From a virus, in the IMG/VR virus record IMGVR_UViG_3300018421_000053, positions 1-45,351 of that record: a DNA stretch of 45,351 bases. One strand, written 5' to 3'. The translations under genes were made by a program, and so were the position numbers. Under the pieces are notes generated by a model. It did not search any database. It saw nothing but the letters and a program-made list of their open reading frames with translations, and had not been told where the DNA came from. This document shows positions 376 to 45,331 of the stretch, piece after piece. Numbering within the stretch: position 1 is the first letter of the stretch; each line of letters begins with the position of its first letter.

Positions 376-431
376 GTTCACAATTATAATTATCTTTATT
401 AGGTGTAAATTTCACCAGTCAAAAAAATAAT

Positions 432-622
432 TGTGTATGATGTTGTAAATGTGCAACACCTTCTGTTGCTAGGTGTGTTGCCAACCCCCACGTGCTTAAA
501 TTAAGCCGCTAGTGCCATCTCTGGCGCACGATTGTCATTTGCAATTGTGAATTTTGACCAATAACGCAGTCATCCGGTTAACTCCACTTCACTTTCACAC
601 CTGTCGATCCTATTTCGACCCC
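432..622 (-). ncRNA. ssrA: tmRNA coding piece (permuted two-piece tmRNA); 3' end approximate
   Basis: The piece starts GGGGTCGAAATAGGATCGAC, the D-arm-side end of tmRNA. GGGGTCG (622-616) pairs over 7 bp with CGACTCC (763-757) of the acceptor piece, with G3 (620) opposite U (759): the G3-U70 pair that marks alanine-accepting RNAs. The tag reading frame at 542-501 encodes ANDNRAPEMALAA then TAA, ending LAA like bacterial ClpXP tags. A later 7-bp hairpin (481-475 with 459-453) fits a tmRNA pseudoknot or helix. The permuted order, with the acceptor piece transcribed first, is that of alphaproteobacterial two-piece tmRNA. The 3' end is set only roughly, before a T run at 432-421. Confidence 0.9.
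501..542 (-). other. tmRNA proteolysis-tag reading frame
   Basis: Thirteen codons, GCA AAT GAC AAT onward, encode ANDNRAPEMALAA and end in TAA. With the alanine brought by the charged tmRNA the full tag would be 14 residues. The AND(N) start and the hydrophobic LAA end match the known bacterial tag pattern; the terminal LAA is the ClpX recognition element. Confidence 0.88.
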
Positions 623-623
623 A

Positions 624-734
624 TCAAAAAAGGAAAATTAATACAGAAACAACTATCATTCCTATAATAATCATAGGACATGCAATACTTGTGTTATTGC
701 CTTCGATTGGTGGAAACTGTTCAAAGTCGTTCAT
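624..734 (-). CDS. 36-residue single-pass membrane protein nested in the tmRNA intervening segment
   Basis: This small ORF fills the spacer between the two tmRNA pieces. It starts 19 nt after the encoded CCA of the acceptor piece, with purine-rich AGAGGAAAAGGAAACT as ribosome binding region, and its TGA ends one base before the GGGG that opens the coding piece. The product has a polar N-terminus (MNDFEQFPPIEGNN) and a hydrophobic C-terminal segment from about residue 17 to 36 (PMIIIGMIVVSVLIFLF), so one membrane helix. In ordinary permuted tmRNA genes the spacer is excised and noncoding. I know no family for it; translation is inferred from the fit, start site and helix. Confidence 0.6.
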   Translation of the reverse strand: MNDFEQFPPIEGNNTSIACPMIIIGMIVVSVLIFLF

Positions 735-752
735 AGTTTCCTTTTCCTCTTT

Positions 753-812
753 TGGTGGAGTCGCCGGGTACCGCCCCCGGGTCCAGAATGTGTCCACGTT
801 GCTTCAACGCTA
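753..812 (-). ncRNA. ssrA: tmRNA acceptor piece (permuted two-piece tmRNA); 5' end approximate
   Basis: Reading the minus strand, 784-753 is GGAC, then a 5-bp T-stem CCGGG/CCCGG around the loop GGCGGTA, then the 3' acceptor strand CGACTCC, discriminator A and encoded CCA. The non-standard T-loop is typical of alphaproteobacterial two-piece tmRNA acceptor pieces. CAG/CTG and GTG/CAC stretches upstream can pair with the start of the coding piece to build helix P2. The transcript probably starts near 812, just downstream of a perfect late promoter octamer at 819-826. Confidence 0.88.
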
Positions 813-818
813 ACAGTT

Positions 819-826
819 TATTTATA
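819..826 (-). promoter_or_regulatory. T4-type late promoter for the tmRNA
   Basis: Perfect TATAAATA octamer on the minus strand, placed so that transcription would begin at about 812, the expected start of the acceptor piece. Confidence 0.65.
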
Positions 827-828
827 CA

Positions 829-1038
829 TTACCATTTGGGCATTGTCAAGATCTTTTTTTGACTTCTTACGGCTTCCATTAAACGCAACAAAACTTTACT
901 ATCGCCGTCATGTGCATAACCATTTTTTGCTTTAAATACTGATCTTTTTTCGTTTAGTTGTGTAAATTCTTTTCCTAAGAGCTTTTCTAAATATGATAAA
1001 TCACTGTCACTTAGACTTGCTATTGCTTTACTCACCAT
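829..1038 (-). CDS. Small hypothetical protein, 69 aa
   Basis: The start chosen is the ATG that overlaps the stop region of the upstream gene (ATGGTGAGTAA) and is preceded by GGAGTAAACTCA. The product is helical and charged: an SDSDLSYLEKLLGKE stretch followed by basic KRSVFKAKNGY and RSQKKILTMPKW. I recognise no family. It is the last protein gene before the tmRNA and is translationally coupled to the gene at 1028-1237. Confidence 0.7.
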   Translation of the reverse strand: MVSKAIASLSDSDLSYLEKLLGKEFTQLNEKRSVFKAKNGYAHDGDSKVLLRLMEAVRSQKKILTMPKW

Positions 1039-2633: not shown

Positions 2634-2808
2634 TGCGTATTCTTTTTATTTCCATCATACATTGTTTTGCTTCTTCGTAATAGCCTTGGCGAGCAAGTTC
2701 TGATGCTGCTCTGCTATAACCGATGATTTCACAGGTATTATATAATCCTGTCCAAAAACCTTGTAGTGGTGCGAAGGTGTATTTCATTACTGTATCCATT
2801 ACACCCAT
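2623..2808 (-). CDS. Small helical protein, 61 aa, distantly DUF1127-like
   Basis: Overlaps both neighbours (DUF1127 protein upstream, subunit c downstream). It has an aromatic N-terminal helix ([19 protein letters not shown]) and a second helix with [19 protein letters not shown], whose RAASEL/A spacing recalls the arginine-rich helix of DUF1127 proteins. The resemblance is weak; treat the family link as a guess. Confidence 0.65.
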
Positions 2809-3050
2809 CCTTTCAAGTTTTCATTAGCATCTGTAAATCTTTTAAAAGATTTATCTTCATGAGCAATTGCCCAAATATCTCCACGTGCGATACCAATGTC
2901 GTTTAGTTCGTAATCGTTTAGTGCTGATAGTTCTTTAATTGTATTACGAACACGTCTTCTATATTCTATTTTTGCTTTTAATGAACAGAACCAGTCTGTT
3001 AATCCGCTAAAATCTAGCCAGCTTGCGGCTGCTAATACGTATTGTGTCAT
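2799..3050 (-). CDS. DUF1127-domain protein, 83 aa
   Basis: Residues about 28-66 contain the DUF1127 signature: YRRRVRNTIKELSALNDYELNDIGIARGDIW. The domain is very common in alphaproteobacteria, where small members take part in phosphate and carbon regulation and RNA turnover. Here it carries an N-terminal extension (LAAASWLDFSGLTDWF) and opens the operon DUF1127 - 61 aa - subunit c - 68 aa, all overlapping or abutting. A phage DUF1127 protein is unusual and would suit interference with a host regulator. Confidence 0.85.
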   Translation of the reverse strand: MTQYVLAAASWLDFSGLTDWFCSLKAKIEYRRRVRNTIKELSALNDYELNDIGIARGDIWAIAHEDKSFKRFTDANENLKGWV

Positions 3051-13996: not shown

Positions 13997-16526
13997 ATTC
14001 AACAAATTCTATTTTAATACTCCAATTAACTGGATTACTGTCACCACGAACTTTTATTTGGAAATCGTTACCATTTATTTCAGTACTTGTATTCCATCCT
14101 AGATAAGTTACTGTCCAGTCACCATTTGTGTCTGGAGATACATAACTTGATGCTGATGCAGCAGAAATAGGAGAATTTGCTGTATATACAACTAAATCAT
14201 ATTCTACTATATCATTTTGATTATACGCACTTCCAGGTGACCATGGTGTTTCTAGAACATCTTGTGTTCCACGCTGATAGTCTATTCTATTAACTGCACC
14301 AACTAAACTTGCAACACCAGTATTATTCTGTACTACTCCTTGTAGTTTCCAAGCTCGTTTAGTTGTTGTACTGTTACCTGCTAGTACATAGAGTTCATAA
14401 AACCATGTTTTATCTGTTGCTGGCTGCAATGTGTCGCCATTAAATGTTACATTAGTTGCAACACCGTCAGTTGTTTGTAATGTTGTTGTTCTAAGGCCAG
14501 GTATATCAATATCAACTGTGTCAGTATTTTCAGTAATATTCAAATTATTGTTTATATTTGTCAAAGTTTTAAATTGTAAATCATTAACTGCTCTAGATTT
14601 AAAAACGTCAGCCCCGCCGCCAACATTGGAAACTGTTAAACTATCCCCAATTGTTATATCGTTACTATTTTGTGTAACTGTGATTAGTCCACTGCCGTTT
14701 ATCTTTCTAAGTTCAAACTCATTACTAACATTGCGCTGTTTAAAAACTTCTGCACCAGTACCAATATTAATAATAGTAGTTGATTGGCTACTAATGTCTT
14801 GAGTTGTAGCTAAATCTTCCCAAGTGTTTGTGTCAGAATAAAATGCTTCAATATTGTTACTTGCTGAATTATATCGTAACATTCCCCCAGTCGCTACTCC
14901 TGGTCGTTGATTGTAATTGCCAATTGGCATAGTAAATGCAGCGTTTCCTGGTAATACTGGATTGTCAGCAATACCAATAATTGGATCCCCGCCTGCACCA
15001 CTGCCATTGGTTACTGTAATTTCGTTTGTTGCTCCAGTTATAGTTCTGGCAATTGCTGTGTTTCCATCTTTTACAACAAACCCGTAACTACTAAGTTGAT
15101 TGACACTATTTCCAAAAGCAGTAAGTGTTACACTACTTTGTTGATAATCAGAAATTGTTCCAGTGTTAAATTGGGCAGTATCTTTGCGAACAAAAACTGT
15201 TAAAATATCAGTACGCACAACAATGTCTAAACTGGATGCATTAAGTGCAAGCTGAGCTGCTTCACTATTGACCAAATAAACATTTGCGCCGCCACCTTCA
15301 TTAATTGTAATACTTCCACCTTCTGCTGTTTGAGTATTACTCGTCGTGCCTCCTGTTGATGTTTGTAACCCTCCAGCTGCCCAACCAGGACTGTTAGGAA
15401 CAGTTGGCGTTGTGCCATCACTAGTTTGTTGTTCATGTTGAACATAATTTGTAGTATATCCAATGATGTTTCCACAATAATCACGTACTGGTATTTGATT
15501 ATCAACTGTACTTTGTGGATCATCAGCTTGTGCTAGTAAGTCTAATAATTCTTGATCAAACAATAGTTCGAAAATATTTGCATACTCAACAGGTTCTCCA
15601 CCAGAAGAAGCACTAATAGGATTTTGTCCTTCTGTACCTCCAAATGACGTTCCAGGTCTATAAGTTACAGGATACCCAGCTAATCTATCATATAAACTTT
15701 TCATGCTTGTAACTAAACGTGCATTGTCAGCAATACTTCCGTTAAACGGATTATGCATTACACCAATTTCACTATTACAACCAGGATCTGGTGCTGCGAA
15801 TTGGCTACCACCAAGTGCATATGCACCTTGAATATTGTTCTCAAAATCGATTAGATTCTTAATGCCAGCCGAAACACCCTCAATATCTGATCTGATACTA
15901 TCAATTACACTTTGACTCAAGTTTCCTGCGTTAATAGCGTCTATGTTATTAGCAATATTACCAAGTATACCACCATTGAATACGTTACTACTAAAGCCGC
16001 CAGTACCAATACATGCGCAAACTTCTCCAGGAACAATGCTACCAATTTGGTCAATTAAGTTCTTACCAGCACCAAGAAAACTTCCAAATGCACGTTCTAG
16101 CATGTTTGGAATAGCAATAGGATCAACAGGTGCGCTACAGAAGTTAATCATGTTAGCAACGTTTTGTGCTTCAGCTAGGACACCATTTAACCTTCCCAAT
16201 ATGTTGTTTAGATTTGTGTGATCCATAAAATCATTCATTGCACTGTCTAGTTGAGACAATGCATCATATAGTTCACCTTGTAATTGTGGAATTCCTAGTA
16301 GTGCTTGTATATTTGCACTTAAACAAATTTGTAAATTTGGAAGTTTAATACCATTTCCACTTAAAACACCACAAAGTAATTCTCTAAGTGTAAAACTATA
16401 TTCTGCCTGTGCAACAATGTTAAGATTGGCGTTGCCAAGTGCAGTTGTGCCACTCAAATGGTGTCTAGCATCCAAATACTGATTAGCGTCTTGCAAACCA
16501 TTCTTAAAATCTGTATAGTCTACCAT
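13992..16526 (-). CDS. Large virion protein, tail-fibre or baseplate-like, 844 aa
   Basis: The N-terminal half is helical and Asn/Leu-rich (LQGELYDALSQLDSAMNDFM, cysteine-containing GEVCACIGTGGF). The C-terminal half is Thr/Asn/Gly-rich with repeat-like beta strands, such as the GTGAEVFKQR and GGGADVFKSR pair, as in phage fibres. The next gene, 2 nt upstream in transcription, is a PAAR tip protein, so a baseplate location fits. No enzymatic motif is visible. Confidence 0.75.
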   Translation of the reverse strand: MVDYTDFKNGLQDANQYLDARHHLSGTTALGNANLNIVAQAEYSFTLRELLCGVLSGNGIKLPNLQICLSANIQALLGIPQLQGELYDALSQLDSAMNDFMDHTNLNNILGRLNGVLAEAQNVANMINFCSAPVDPIAIPNMLERAFGSFLGAGKNLIDQIGSIVPGEVCACIGTGGFSSNVFNGGILGNIANNIDAINAGNLSQSVIDSIRSDIEGVSAGIKNLIDFENNIQGAYALGGSQFAAPDPGCNSEIGVMHNPFNGSIADNARLVTSMKSLYDRLAGYPVTYRPGTSFGGTEGQNPISASSGGEPVEYANIFELLFDQELLDLLAQADDPQSTVDNQIPVRDYCGNIIGYTTNYVQHEQQTSDGTTPTVPNSPGWAAGGLQTSTGGTTSNTQTAEGGSITINEGGGANVYLVNSEAAQLALNASSLDIVVRTDILTVFVRKDTAQFNTGTISDYQQSSVTLTAFGNSVNQLSSYGFVVKDGNTAIARTITGATNEITVTNGSGAGGDPIIGIADNPVLPGNAAFTMPIGNYNQRPGVATGGMLRYNSASNNIEAFYSDTNTWEDLATTQDISSQSTTIINIGTGAEVFKQRNVSNEFELRKINGSGLITVTQNSNDITIGDSLTVSNVGGGADVFKSRAVNDLQFKTLTNINNNLNITENTDTVDIDIPGLRTTTLQTTDGVATNVTFNGDTLQPATDKTWFYELYVLAGNSTTTKRAWKLQGVVQNNTGVASLVGAVNRIDYQRGTQDVLETPWSPGSAYNQNDIVEYDLVVYTANSPISAASASSYVSPDTNGDWTVTYLGWNTSTEINGNDFQIKVRGDSNPVNWSIKIEFVEL

Positions 16527-33762: not shown

Positions 33763-34146
33763 ATGACACATATACCACAAAAATATCAGAAACTACTGGA
33801 AAATTTTCCATTTCTAACACTTATTTCGTATGGCGGTAATGAATATGTTGGCATTATGCAAAATCTTGACCAACAAATGGCAAGTATGTATTGCTTTGAA
33901 AACATTAAAAACGCTAACGATAAAAGAGATTTTTTAGATCTAGGTGAAGAATGGTGGTGGGGAACAAATCGAATGATCCCTATCAACATTATTTTTAAAA
34001 GCCGCTGGGAAAAATTTAGGCCCACGTTAGTTACTTTCAGTCTTAAAGACTTTGAAGTAATACATGGACCAACTATTAGTTTAAGTAATATAATTCAAAA
34101 ACGTGTTAAAAGAAGAAATATACAACTAGTTAGAAAAGTTAACTAG
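33763..34146 (+). CDS. Conserved T4-like phage hypothetical protein, 127 aa; only plus-strand protein gene
   Basis: MTHIPQKYQKLLENFPFLTL then YVGIMQNLDQQMASMYCFEN and the tryptophan block EEWWWGTNRMIPINIIFKSR. The EYVGI.QN.D and GEEWWW text recurs in T4-like cyanophage proteins of unknown role. It is divergent from the virion gene at 33717 and convergent with the oxygenase gene, overlapping it by 8 nt. Confidence 0.85.
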   Translation: MTHIPQKYQKLLENFPFLTLISYGGNEYVGIMQNLDQQMASMYCFENIKNANDKRDFLDLGEEWWWGTNRMIPINIIFKSRWEKFRPTLVTFSLKDFEVIHGPTISLSNIIQKRVKRRNIQLVRKVN

Positions 34147-34891
34147 TTCTAAGTGTAGTATTCTTTTGCGGGTCAACTGTTCGTAAACGTCTGGCTGTTG
34201 TTTTTTCGGCTGCATGTAACAATAACCCACGCCTAATTTTATCACTGTGATTTGGCATAGTGCTATGAAGAACTCTTGGGTGCCAACACACAAAACTTCC
34301 TTTTGGTCCTTGATGTTGTTTATAATTATCCATAAAGAACAAGTCAAATACGCTCTTGTCTGCATACAAGTTTTGATAATAATCATATATGTATTTGTGT
34401 GACCCTGGAACATATCCTGTTGCACCATTGTCTGGTTCAAAGTCACAAAGCATTACCATAAATTGTAATCCCAACAGACCTTCTGTATATTTAAACTCTT
34501 TGAATCGATAAGGTGTATCAATATGTGGACGTACAAAATTCATACCTGGATGTAGTACAATAAAGTCACACATATACCATTCCCAATTGCCGGCACCAAA
34601 TGCAGCATCTGCACACTTGCCCAATTCAGGTTTGATTACATTATTAATAAAATGATTTTCTTTTGGTTCATCTGTCCAATAGTAAGCCCAGTCAATTTTA
34701 TCTATTTCTTCTTTGGACATTTCCTTGATTGTTTCCCAACCAAACCATTTCATATTTTTGTCATGGCCACGCTCTGGTGGAAATGTTTCTGCATAAGTGT
34801 TTAATTCTTCAATACACTCAGGATCAAATCTGGCTTCCCACATTGTAAATCCATTGTCATTGATTTCTTCTAAAAATTTTTGTTCATTCAT
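34139..34891 (-). CDS. Phytanoyl-CoA dioxygenase-like 2-oxoglutarate/Fe(II) oxygenase
   Basis: The 250-residue protein holds the metal triad: His and Asp of RPHIDTPYR, and the distal His in WHPRVLHSTMPNHS, followed by RRGLLLHA with the 2-oxoglutarate-binding Arg. GATGYVPGSHKYIYDY is the typical PhyH segment. Related oxygenases are frequent in cyanophages with no settled substrate. It lies 1 nt after the PolIII-like gene. Confidence 0.88.
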   Translation of the reverse strand: MNEQKFLEEINDNGFTMWEARFDPECIEELNTYAETFPPERGHDKNMKWFGWETIKEMSKEEIDKIDWAYYWTDEPKENHFINNVIKPELGKCADAAFGAGNWEWYMCDFIVLHPGMNFVRPHIDTPYRFKEFKYTEGLLGLQFMVMLCDFEPDNGATGYVPGSHKYIYDYYQNLYADKSVFDLFFMDNYKQHQGPKGSFVCWHPRVLHSTMPNHSDKIRRGLLLHAAEKTTARRLRTVDPQKNTTLRTS

Positions 34892-43321: not shown

Positions 43322-43412
43322 TGGCGGAGGCTCAGGGATTCGAACCCTGGGAACGCTTTTGACGTTCGTCGGTTTTCAAGACCGGTGCATTCGACCACTC
43401 TGCCAAACCTCC
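43322..43412 (-). tRNA. tRNA-Ser (anticodon UGA)
   Basis: 91 nt with a long variable arm, anticodon loop CTTGAAA, GGTTCGAATCC T-arm and encoded CCA. 7-bp acceptor stem GGAGGTT type. Reads UCA and related serine codons. Confidence 0.95.
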
Positions 43413-43430
43413 ATAATGGTCATCTATTTA

Positions 43431-44027
43431 CTACTTTACAGTAAAATTGGCTGCAAAAGTCATTCTTTCTTTATCTAAGCCGTGCACCTCAGTTAAATGT
43501 GGCACAAAGGATTCGAATAACAATAACTTACCTGGTTCTGGCGCATATCCAGTTTCTTGTGTTGTTTCCATTTTGTAATTTTTAATTGGAAGTGTGCTAT
43601 GTTTTGTAAAAGGATTTTTAAAAATTGTTCCTGCTGCACCGTCTGGTGCTTTTAAGTAATAGATAGCACTAATGTTCGAGTTAGGATGGGTATGTTCTTC
43701 TTGAAACTGTCCAGGCCCACTAGCATTAATCCATGCATGGTCGCATTTAATTTTAGATGGATGTGCATCTAAATGTTGACAAAATATTTTAATATGTCTC
43801 TCAATGCCTAGTATTAGTTTTCTAAAAGGCTGAGTATTTGCTAAACTCTTTTTATGATAAGACGACTTTACATCACAAAACCAACCGGCTGGCTTTTCTT
43901 CAAGTATATCACCTCTAAGTTCATCACACTTGTTTATTATTTTTTGATGATCGTCTTTGCTCACAACATCATATGCATAATATACAAGGGTTGGAAAATG
44001 AGCATTAATTCCAAAAGGTTTGTTCAT
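43431..44027 (-). CDS. Second 2-oxoglutarate/Fe(II) oxygenase-like protein, 198 aa
   Basis: The core EEHTHPNSNISAIYYLKAPD and LLLFESFVPHLTEV with the late Arg in RMTFAANF match the TIGR02466-type putative oxygenases (His...His...Arg). Different family branch from the PhyH-like gene at 34139. Substrate unknown. It lies between tRNA genes. Confidence 0.8.
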   Translation of the reverse strand: MNKPFGINAHFPTLVYYAYDVVSKDDHQKIINKCDELRGDILEEKPAGWFCDVKSSYHKKSLANTQPFRKLILGIERHIKIFCQHLDAHPSKIKCDHAWINASGPGQFQEEHTHPNSNISAIYYLKAPDGAAGTIFKNPFTKHSTLPIKNYKMETTQETGYAPEPGKLLLFESFVPHLTEVHGLDKERMTFAANFTVK

Positions 44028-44228
44028 TTAACTAAAATGTTTTTGTAACATTTCAATGCGATCTTCTGCTGCCGCCATTTTATCAAGTTCTTCTTGAATC
44101 GCTTCAACAATGTCGCTGTGCTCACCAATACCTACTGATTGATTCATATAAACCATAATGTTTGTTTTTGCACGTTCTAACTCACCTTCGGCGTGCATAC
44201 GTGCTGCTTTGACTAGTTGTTCTTTCAT
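44028..44228 (-). CDS. Small conserved phage protein, 66 aa
   Basis: The ATG at 44228 follows GGAAGAAAAAAA. Helical: EQLVKAARMHAEGELERAKT, then YMNQSVGIGEHSDIVEAIQE. VGIGEH-type small proteins recur in marine T4-like phages. It abuts the oxygenase gene. Confidence 0.75.
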   Translation of the reverse strand: MKEQLVKAARMHAEGELERAKTNIMVYMNQSVGIGEHSDIVEAIQEELDKMAAAEDRIEMLQKHFS

Positions 44229-44266
44229 TTTTTTTCTTCCTTTAAAATAGTATGTGTATATATTAA

Positions 44267-44342
44267 TGGAGCGGACGACCAGATTCGAACTGGCGACATT
44301 TACCTTGGCAAGGTAACGCTCTACCAACTGAGCTACATCCGC
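44267..44342 (-). tRNA. tRNA-Gly (GCC)
   Basis: 76 nt, acceptor GCGGATG/CGTCCGC, anticodon loop TTGCCAA, encoded CCA. Confidence 0.95.
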
Positions 44343-44345
44343 ATA

Positions 44346-44421
44346 TGGTGGAGAATACCGGGATCGAACCGATGACCTATTGAATGCAAATCAATCGCTC
44401 TCCCAACTGAGCTAATTCCCC
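44346..44421 (-). tRNA. tRNA-Ala (UGC)
   Basis: 76 nt, acceptor GGGGAAT/ATTCTCC with the G3-U70 alanine identity pair, anticodon loop TTTGCAT, encoded CCA. Confidence 0.95.
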
Positions 44422-44425
44422 TTTA

Positions 44426-44502
44426 TGGTCTCGGTGAATGGATTCGAACCACCGGTCTCCTGGACCCAAACCAGGCGCTTTACCAGACTAAGCTACACCG
44501 AG
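44426..44502 (-). tRNA. tRNA-Pro (UGG)
   Basis: 77 nt, acceptor CTCGGTG/CACCGAG, anticodon loop TTTGGGT, encoded CCA. Its first 10 nt overlap the end of the CDS at 44493-44693. Confidence 0.95.
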
Positions 44503-44693
44503 CTTTCTTTTGTCATTACACAAACGGCTTGCATACCTTGAGGAAAGTAGCCGTCCATGCCGCCTACATCTACTGATAGTTGCTCCCTTGCTTCAAAACA
44601 TGTGTACATGTCTGGAAAGGTATACTTAGGACCATAAGCATTTACTACCATTGGTTCAGTACCATTCAGTATAATGTAAACTAAAACCCACAT
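44493..44693 (-). CDS. Small protein ending inside tRNA-Pro, 66 aa
   Basis: The ATG at 44693 follows AGGAGAACCACA. Hydrophobic start (MWVLVYIILNG), then YGPKYTFPDMYTCFEAREQL and a second Cys near the end; could be membrane-attached. The TAG stop is formed by bases 8-10 of tRNA-Pro, so mRNA and tRNA processing compete on the same transcript. Confidence 0.7.
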   Translation of the reverse strand: MWVLVYIILNGTEPMVVNAYGPKYTFPDMYTCFEAREQLSVDVGGMDGYFPQGMQAVCVMTKESSV

Positions 44694-44708
44694 TGTGGTT
44701 CTCCTAAT

Positions 44709-44782
44709 TGGCATCGGTGCAGGGAGTCGAACCCCGGCTTTCAGTTTTGGAGACTGACGTGCTACCATAACACTTCACCGAC
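44709..44782 (-). tRNA. tRNA-Trp (CCA)
   Basis: 74 nt, anticodon loop CTCCAAA, T-arm GGTTCGACTCC, encoded CCA. The first acceptor pair is G-U. Confidence 0.92.
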
Positions 44783-44786
44783 ATAA

Positions 44787-44871
44787 TGGTGCGGATAGAG
44801 GGACTTGAACCCCCACGCTGTAAAGCACTAGAACCTAAATCTAGCGTGTCTACCAATTTCACCATATCCGC
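44787..44871 (-). tRNA. tRNA-Leu (UAG)
   Basis: 85 nt with a long variable arm, acceptor GCGGATA/TATCCGC, anticodon loop TTTAGGT, encoded CCA. Confidence 0.95.
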
Positions 44872-44875
44872 ATTA

Positions 44876-44951
44876 TGGTGCTGGATGAGGGACTTGAACC
44901 CCCGACCCACTGATTACAAATCAGTTGCTCTACCAGCTGAGCTAATCCAGC
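44876..44951 (-). tRNA. tRNA-Thr (UGU)
   Basis: 76 nt, acceptor GCTGGAT/ATCCAGC, anticodon loop TTTGTAA, encoded CCA. Confidence 0.95.
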
Positions 44952-44952
44952 G

Positions 44953-45030
44953 TTATCTTCTTACTCTGCAGTTAGGGCACCAATCATTGTGACCTAATTC
45001 GCTTTTACATTCTGTGCATACTTTATTCAT
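44953..45030 (-). CDS. 25-residue zinc-ribbon protein between tRNA genes
   Basis: MNKVCTECKSELGHNDWCPN followed by CRVRR: two Cys-x2-Cys pairs (CTEC and CPNC) 9 residues apart, enough for a minimal zinc ribbon, with a basic tail. TATAAATA lies 6 nt before the ATG. The stop lies 2 nt from tRNA-Thr. Too short to name, but four cysteines and a perfect late promoter argue against chance. Confidence 0.65.
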   Translation of the reverse strand: MNKVCTECKSELGHNDWCPNCRVRR

Positions 45031-45036
45031 AAGCAT

Positions 45037-45044
45037 TATTTATA
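45037..45044 (-). promoter_or_regulatory. Late promoter before the zinc-ribbon gene
   Basis: Perfect TATAAATA, 6 nt before the ATG at 45030, immediately after the tRNA-Ser(GCU) 3' end. Confidence 0.6.
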
Positions 45045-45132
45045 TGGCGGTCGGACTGGGAATCGAACCCAGTCTACCCTTTCAGGTAGTACGGATTAGC
45101 AATCCGCTGCATTACCATCCTGCCCCCCGACC
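45045..45132 (-). tRNA. tRNA-Ser (GCU)
   Basis: 88 nt with long variable arm, acceptor GGTCGGG/TCCGACC (last pair G-U), anticodon loop TTGCTAA, encoded CCA. Confidence 0.93.
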
Positions 45133-45133
45133 T

Positions 45134-45208
45134 TGGCTCCAGATGTAGGGATCGAACCTACGACCAATTGATTAACAGTCAACTGCTCTACCTCTGAGCT
45201 AATCTGGA
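45134..45208 (-). tRNA. tRNA-Asn (GUU)
   Basis: 75 nt, acceptor TCCAGAT/ATCTGGA, anticodon loop CTGTTAA, encoded CCA. Confidence 0.95.
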
Positions 45209-45218
45209 ACGTTAATTT

Positions 45219-45247
45219 ATAATAGTATTTAACCTCTTATTTGTCAA
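45219..45247 (-). promoter_or_regulatory. Early sigma70-type promoter in the tRNA cluster
   Basis: TTGACA, 17 bp, TATTAT, just upstream of tRNA-Asn; likely transcribes the tRNA run below it. Confidence 0.7.
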
Positions 45248-45255
45248 CATTTTTT

Positions 45256-45331
45256 TGGTGCTCCCGGTAGGATTCGAACCTACAGTCGACCCGTTATGAG
45301 CGGGGGGCTTTAACCGTTAAGCTACAGGAGC
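45256..45331 (-). tRNA. tRNA with CAU anticodon (Met or lysidine-type Ile2)
   Basis: 76 nt, acceptor GCTCCTG/CGGGAGC, anticodon loop CTCATAA, encoded CCA. The anticodon stem has 4 good pairs and a C/U mismatch at its outer end. Sequence alone does not separate elongator Met from Ile2; initiator features (three G-C pairs at the stem base, unpaired first base) are absent. Confidence 0.9.

Follow-up and report, generated by a model that had tools for sequence, protein, structure and literature searches.

The intervening segment (IVS) of a permuted tmRNA is normally excised and discarded. Among 18,146 phage genomes, 53 two-piece tmRNAs have been suggested, of which 50 belong to marine or aquatic phages; one was described in the myophage Melnitz (PMC9004378, 2022). 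A further study lists 79 phage tmRNA sequences and also reports genes nested within tmRNA: a tRNA gene inside the IVS of a tmRNA from the nominally archaeal MAG GCA-2688965, called unique there, and group I introns of tmRNA that contain homing endonuclease genes (PMC11915505).

We analyzed a 45-kb IMG/VR record classed as linear (45,351 nucleotides, in full the window). The original prediction, made from the letters alone, had regarded a permuted tmRNA as new for a T4-like phage genome. This claim of novelty was wrong, as PMC9004378 already lists such phage tmRNAs, and because they are published, the tmRNA of the window by itself belongs to a known kind. With the Rfam families alpha_tmRNA (RF01849) and tmRNA_permuted (RF04321) it shares a full-length match, a G3-U70 acceptor stem, an encoded CCA, a resume codon, and a tag ending in LAA. 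However, its IVS is 130 nt long and holds a protein gene. In a survey of 240 alphaproteobacterial genomes, centered on an Aliiroseovarius genome, 219 had an RF04321 match above the cut-off; among the 150 alphaproteobacterial matches listed, the median length was 217.5 nt, compared to 314 in the window (about 97 nt shorter), and only 4 of the 150 reached a length of 290 or more. Alphaproteobacterial IVSs are usually far shorter than that of the window.

The window shares a viral two-piece tmRNA of the alphaproteobacterial type with Melnitz and the marine phages, and we also found an IVS ORF (MFKWLSKTRLVV...PKYLSG...) in Melnitz, a cultured Methylophilales phage (MZ577097). This ORF belongs to the KYLG family, another family than that of the window. 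It lies under the annotated SsrA, where no CDS is annotated, and we found no mention of it in PMC9004378, so that one overlooked small protein gene is present in a cultured phage. GCA-2688965 resembles the window in that the IVS of its permuted tmRNA houses another gene, but there the cargo is a tRNA in a nominally archaeal MAG, whereas here we found protein genes in many phages and a tRNA-Arg in a viral locus. The group I introns also place a protein gene within a removed tmRNA segment, but the segment described here is a permutation spacer and not self-splicing, and its proteins are very small and have no relation to endonucleases. No report of a protein gene in a tmRNA IVS was found in the literature searched, which largely excluded subscription papers and preprints.

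The permuted tmRNA and its intervening segment

The features of the locus, in the order of transcription, are the following.

821..849, minus strand: promoter-like element TTGACA-N17-TATAAA, read in the sequence, immediately upstream of the tmRNA
753..814, minus strand: acceptor (5') piece of the tmRNA with the T arm and CGACUCCACCA, CCA at 755-753 (RF04321 and RF01849 alignments, sequence)
623..752, minus strand: IVS of the permuted tmRNA, 130 nt, between the CCA end (753) and the GGGG of the coding piece (622)
739..750, minus strand: ribosome-binding region AGAGGAAAAGGA (sequence); in the predicted fold of the full precursor it is paired to the 3' end of the IVS ORF
624..734, minus strand: small gene in the IVS, MNDFEQFPPIEGNNTSIACPMIIIGMIVVSVLIFLF, 36 codons (ORF list, sequence, homologs)
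450..622, minus strand: coding (3') piece of the tmRNA, GGGGUCGAAAUAGGAUCGAC... (RF01849 alignment)
501..542, minus strand: tag reading frame GCA...TAA, ANDNRAPEMALAA (ARAGORN, RF04321 alignment)

ARAGORN called a permuted tmRNA at 847..410 (minus strand) with the tag ANDNRAPEMALAA. Using cmscan, we obtained a match to the full RF01849 model (1-355) at 853-450 (minus strand; 130.7 bits, E 1.6e-35; cut-off, 50 bits) and a match to RF04321 at 814-501 (minus strand; 117.8 bits, E 1.6e-22; cut-off, 47 bits). The order is permuted, with the 3' half before the 5' half in a covariance match above the curated cut-off. The acceptor stem, GGGGUCG/CGACUCC, has 7 bp including G3-U70 and is followed by the discriminator A and then CCA, which makes it alanine type. 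The T arm loop reads GGCGGUA in the window sequence, and the tag frame (GCA AAT ... GCG GCT TAA) has a resume codon and a hydrophobic ending. These results confirmed the original prediction in its main claim, a viral permuted tmRNA of the alphaproteobacterial type, for which it had suggested a search with the alpha-tmRNA covariance model as a check; the acceptor stem, the encoded CCA, the T-loop, and a tag frame of its own (542-501) were likewise found as it had described them. The span that it had given, 432-812, was roughly right, the 5' part reaching to about 814.

A promoter consensus scan, which requires the -10 box to end in T, did not list the 821-849 element in the window. Among the matches listed, 162 of 296 viral tmRNA loci have a similar element in front of them, a count made without a shuffled control. 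No SmpB gene was found in the 45-kb fragment, and SmpB of the host is assumed. The tmRNA of the window is intact and complete, and it lies in a conserved viral gene neighborhood. Its obvious role would be ribosome rescue in infection, as had been proposed.

The truly unusual feature is the protein gene in the IVS, which had been overlooked although it lies inside the coordinates first assigned to the tmRNA. The ends of the IVS are complementary and prolong the acceptor stem. The 36-codon ORF almost fills the 130 nt; it starts after AGAGGAAAAGGAAACT and closes with a TGA stop codon that is separated by a single nucleotide from the GGGG of the mature coding piece. The encoded protein, as read from the sequence, has an acidic N-terminal half, a single C-terminal membrane span, and no lysine or arginine. 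A PHROG search with window protein P0001 returned only phrog_32596 (E 0.077), over the membrane span, and assigned it to no known family. Our best guess is that it acts in the host membrane. We consider it probable that the phage permuted tmRNA also serves to carry a small protein gene.

Open reading frames in viral tmRNA spacers

We assembled at least 303 viral permuted tmRNAs from pattern scans of viral contigs, selected for an IVS length of about 79 to 171 nt. Among the matches listed, their IVSs formed about 100 clusters. A ribosome-binding site followed by an ORF of at least 25 codons was present in 23 of 57 clusters of viral IVSs of 100 to 175 nt, compared to a mean of 3.6 and a maximum of 6 in 100 dinucleotide-preserving shuffles. 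Of 14 long IVSs from bacterial assemblies, one had the same combination, and two (L124 and L139) look like misbinned viral contigs.

For the selection test, we sorted the ORFs into families of similar proteins, made codon alignments, and placed substitutions on a minimum spanning tree. Ten families had an excess of synonymous changes, with pN/pS of 0.12 to 0.58 and P values of 1e-25 to 4e-3, which treat the substitutions on the tree as independent and are uncorrected for the roughly two dozen families tested. Correction for the number of families would leave the strongest P values unaffected and render the weakest (about 2e-3 to 4e-3) marginal. The ten families, given below, cover 133 of the 303 viral loci (among the matches listed).

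L261 type: pN/pS 0.16, P 1.4e-25
L003: pN/pS 0.27, P 2e-18
L007: pN/pS 0.32, P 5e-8
L029/DLCM: pN/pS 0.44, P 2e-6
L009/KYLG: pN/pS 0.58, P 5e-6
L266: pN/pS 0.12, P 6e-5
L279: pN/pS 0.37, P 6e-4
L269: pN/pS 0.30, P 2e-3
L005: pN/pS 0.38, P 2e-3
L287: pN/pS 0.46, P 4e-3

Alternative-frame ORFs and ORFs of structured IVSs, used as controls, had a pN/pS of about 1, and three-base indels in the IVS ORFs respected the frame. On the same ground, the ORFs of the structured clusters L016 and L178 were rejected as coding.

Some viral IVSs are non-coding, many being structured or holding other cargo, such as the tRNA-Arg(TCT) at L023:4705-4781, inside the IVS of a viral permuted tmRNA. The IVSs of L016, L010, L050, L067, and L150 consist of conserved, non-coding sequence, and an Rfam search of the non-coding viral IVSs gave no family at gathering scores. 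In the L261 IVS cluster (32 loci) we observed a second, upstream overlapping frame with an ATG or GTG directly after AAAGGAG, which may serve as a translated leader for the main IVS ORF.

The position of the stop codon differs among the IVS-ORF families, and a single shared regulatory logic is therefore not established. The stop of the L003/L004 family falls within the mature coding piece, with its last base at position 13 of that piece, and the frames of the L017 and L029 groups read further into it. These features would fit a scheme in which the IVS ORFs are targets of the tmRNA itself: in families ending in MGAK or reading into the coding piece, processing at the 5' end of the coding piece would cut off the stop codon, and the resulting non-stop messages would be tagged and then destroyed, which would place tmRNA supply under feedback of the ArfA kind. 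However, processing spares the stop in the class of the window and in the MIEK.., DLCM, and MKHY families, where it is located within the IVS, and the conserved part of the proteins ends ahead of the junction. We thus regard self-targeting as unlikely and favor the reading of the IVS ORFs as small genes carried by the tmRNA.

Within IVSs, homologs of the window ORF were found only in L103, L110, and L120 among the sampled viral loci. This small family, underpowered alone, holds 2 synonymous changes and 1 nonsynonymous change (P 0.11), and the ribosome-binding site of L103 is weaker than that of the window. By scanning for the motif QFPPIEG we found stand-alone relatives. The protein stands alone, 100% identical, in L384 and L385, and diverged stand-alone versions are present in L395, L393, and L382. 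All 3 differences between the ORFs of the window and L385 are synonymous, but two of them fall in the search motif, and they are thus not independent evidence. Compared to L395, outside the search motif, pS was 0.60 and pN was 0.23 (P 0.014). A tblastn search of cultured phages with the window protein and a diverged homolog gave nothing convincing for stand-alone relatives.

These data also bear on a rival explanation, namely, that the IVS is an AT-rich spacer, kept by an ordinary phage permuted tmRNA just for its processing stem, in which the ORF arose by chance as an open frame. AT-rich DNA readily yields short ORFs, complementary IVS ends are found in viral and many bacterial copies, and the within-IVS family of the window offers just three ORF substitutions. 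A chance frame would nevertheless leave unexplained the roughly 6-fold excess of ribosome-binding site plus ORF over the shuffles, the strong purifying selection in ten families, the identical and diverged stand-alone proteins, and a synonymous excess against L395 that persists outside the search motif. It is already disfavored, and we consider it quite improbable.

Folding and a tentative model of dual output

We next consider how a nested gene carried by the tmRNA could be expressed. The tmRNA precursor of the window folds with -52.6 kcal/mol (z -4.9), and the acceptor stem continues into the IVS, which in the predicted fold brings the ribosome-binding site into pairing with the ORF's 3' end. 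The mean unpaired probability of the ribosome-binding site was 0.12 in the full precursor versus 0.47 in the nascent form, which lacks the last 18 nt of the IVS, in ViennaRNA folds that model neither ribosomes nor pseudoknots. A like contrast was found in L083, L146, L279, L307, L024, L261, and L266; it was weaker in several other families and not present in all. Masking of the ribosome-binding site by the stem recurs in families whose IVS starts with AAAGGA.

From these folds we infer the following course of events. A single transcript would begin just upstream of the acceptor piece. During transcription, the IVS would expose the ribosome-binding site at its 5' end, and the 36-residue membrane protein would be translatable. 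Once transcription has passed through the IVS's 3' end and the coding piece, these would pair with the ribosome-binding site and the acceptor strand, and translation would end as the acceptor stem closes and processing begins. Processing would then remove the IVS and yield the two mature tmRNA pieces, which, together with host SmpB, would rescue stalled ribosomes and add an ALAA-ending tag. Translation and tmRNA maturation would presumably compete with each other.

In its general form, the model holds that these are dual-output loci with an exchangeable spacer pocket, in which the processing stem also controls the cargo genes and provides them with a ribosome-binding site and, for one class, with a stop codon as well. 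Peptide synthesis would be limited to transcription and would end at tmRNA maturation. We propose this general form tentatively, as a possibility somewhat short of an even chance. Such an arrangement would be a compact way for one short transcript to yield both a protein and a stable RNA.

Exchange of spacer contents and the phage neighborhood

The tmRNA body of the window is 97% identical to that of L213, 96% to that of L055, and 95% to that of L178, and all three have unrelated IVSs. Conversely, L103 is only 82% identical in the tmRNA body and 98% identical in the IVS. The L261-type gene stands alone upstream of the tmRNA in L057, L160, and L202, and it is also a stand-alone gene in L214, where ARAGORN calls no tmRNA. 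Downstream of the tmRNA, the L083-type gene stands alone in L024 and the DLCM-type gene in L186. These comparisons show that the tmRNA body and the contents of its IVS are swapped independently. The IVS acts as a cargo pocket that small phage genes from the neighborhood have entered and left many times.

The tmRNA spacer serves many other phages, too, as an exchangeable pocket for small genes. Annotation masks tmRNA spacers, which are taken for waste, and small phage proteins have therefore been overlooked in large number. The repeated entry of small genes into the same spacer would also represent a natural experiment on the origin of nested genes.

In L385 (about 14046-14214), the stand-alone ORF lies exactly between two copies of the 28-bp direct repeat TTGATGTGGAAATGGCATAAGGGGGTTG. 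One copy ends the upstream gene, and the other begins at the stop codon of the ORF, which looks like a precise insertion. Separately, manA RNA motifs (RF01745) were observed near viral tmRNAs at L057:1813-1987 and L010:3125-3352.

The window encodes phage replication genes, namely, a DnaB-like helicase, a primase, and a ribonucleotide reductase. The tmRNA is flanked by genes 829-1137 and 1028-1237 and, on its opposite side, by gene 1-324, and these genes recur in many other viral contigs; L213, whose tmRNA body is among the closest, has the same flanking genes on both sides, and the nearest tmRNA bodies found are viral. Although the tmRNA lies close to the contig end and gene 1-324 resembles an outer-membrane protein, the idea that host DNA without a phage role was captured or misassembled there (for 1-830, a doubt raised in the original prediction) is refuted by this synteny and is extremely improbable, the IVSs of alphaproteobacterial copies being, moreover, mostly much shorter.

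Several other genes of the window were observed, all on the minus strand. An AlgH-like DUF179 protein (PF02622) is encoded at 1302-1850, a DUF1127 protein (PF06568) at 2799-3050, and a homolog of phytanoyl-CoA dioxygenase (PhyH, PF05721) at 34139-34891. Ten tRNA genes lie at 43322-45331, near the far end of the window. The protein encoded at 2397-2633 matches ATP synthase subunit c (43.4 bits to PF00137, for which the cut-off is 24) and has homologs in the viral contigs L245 and L253.
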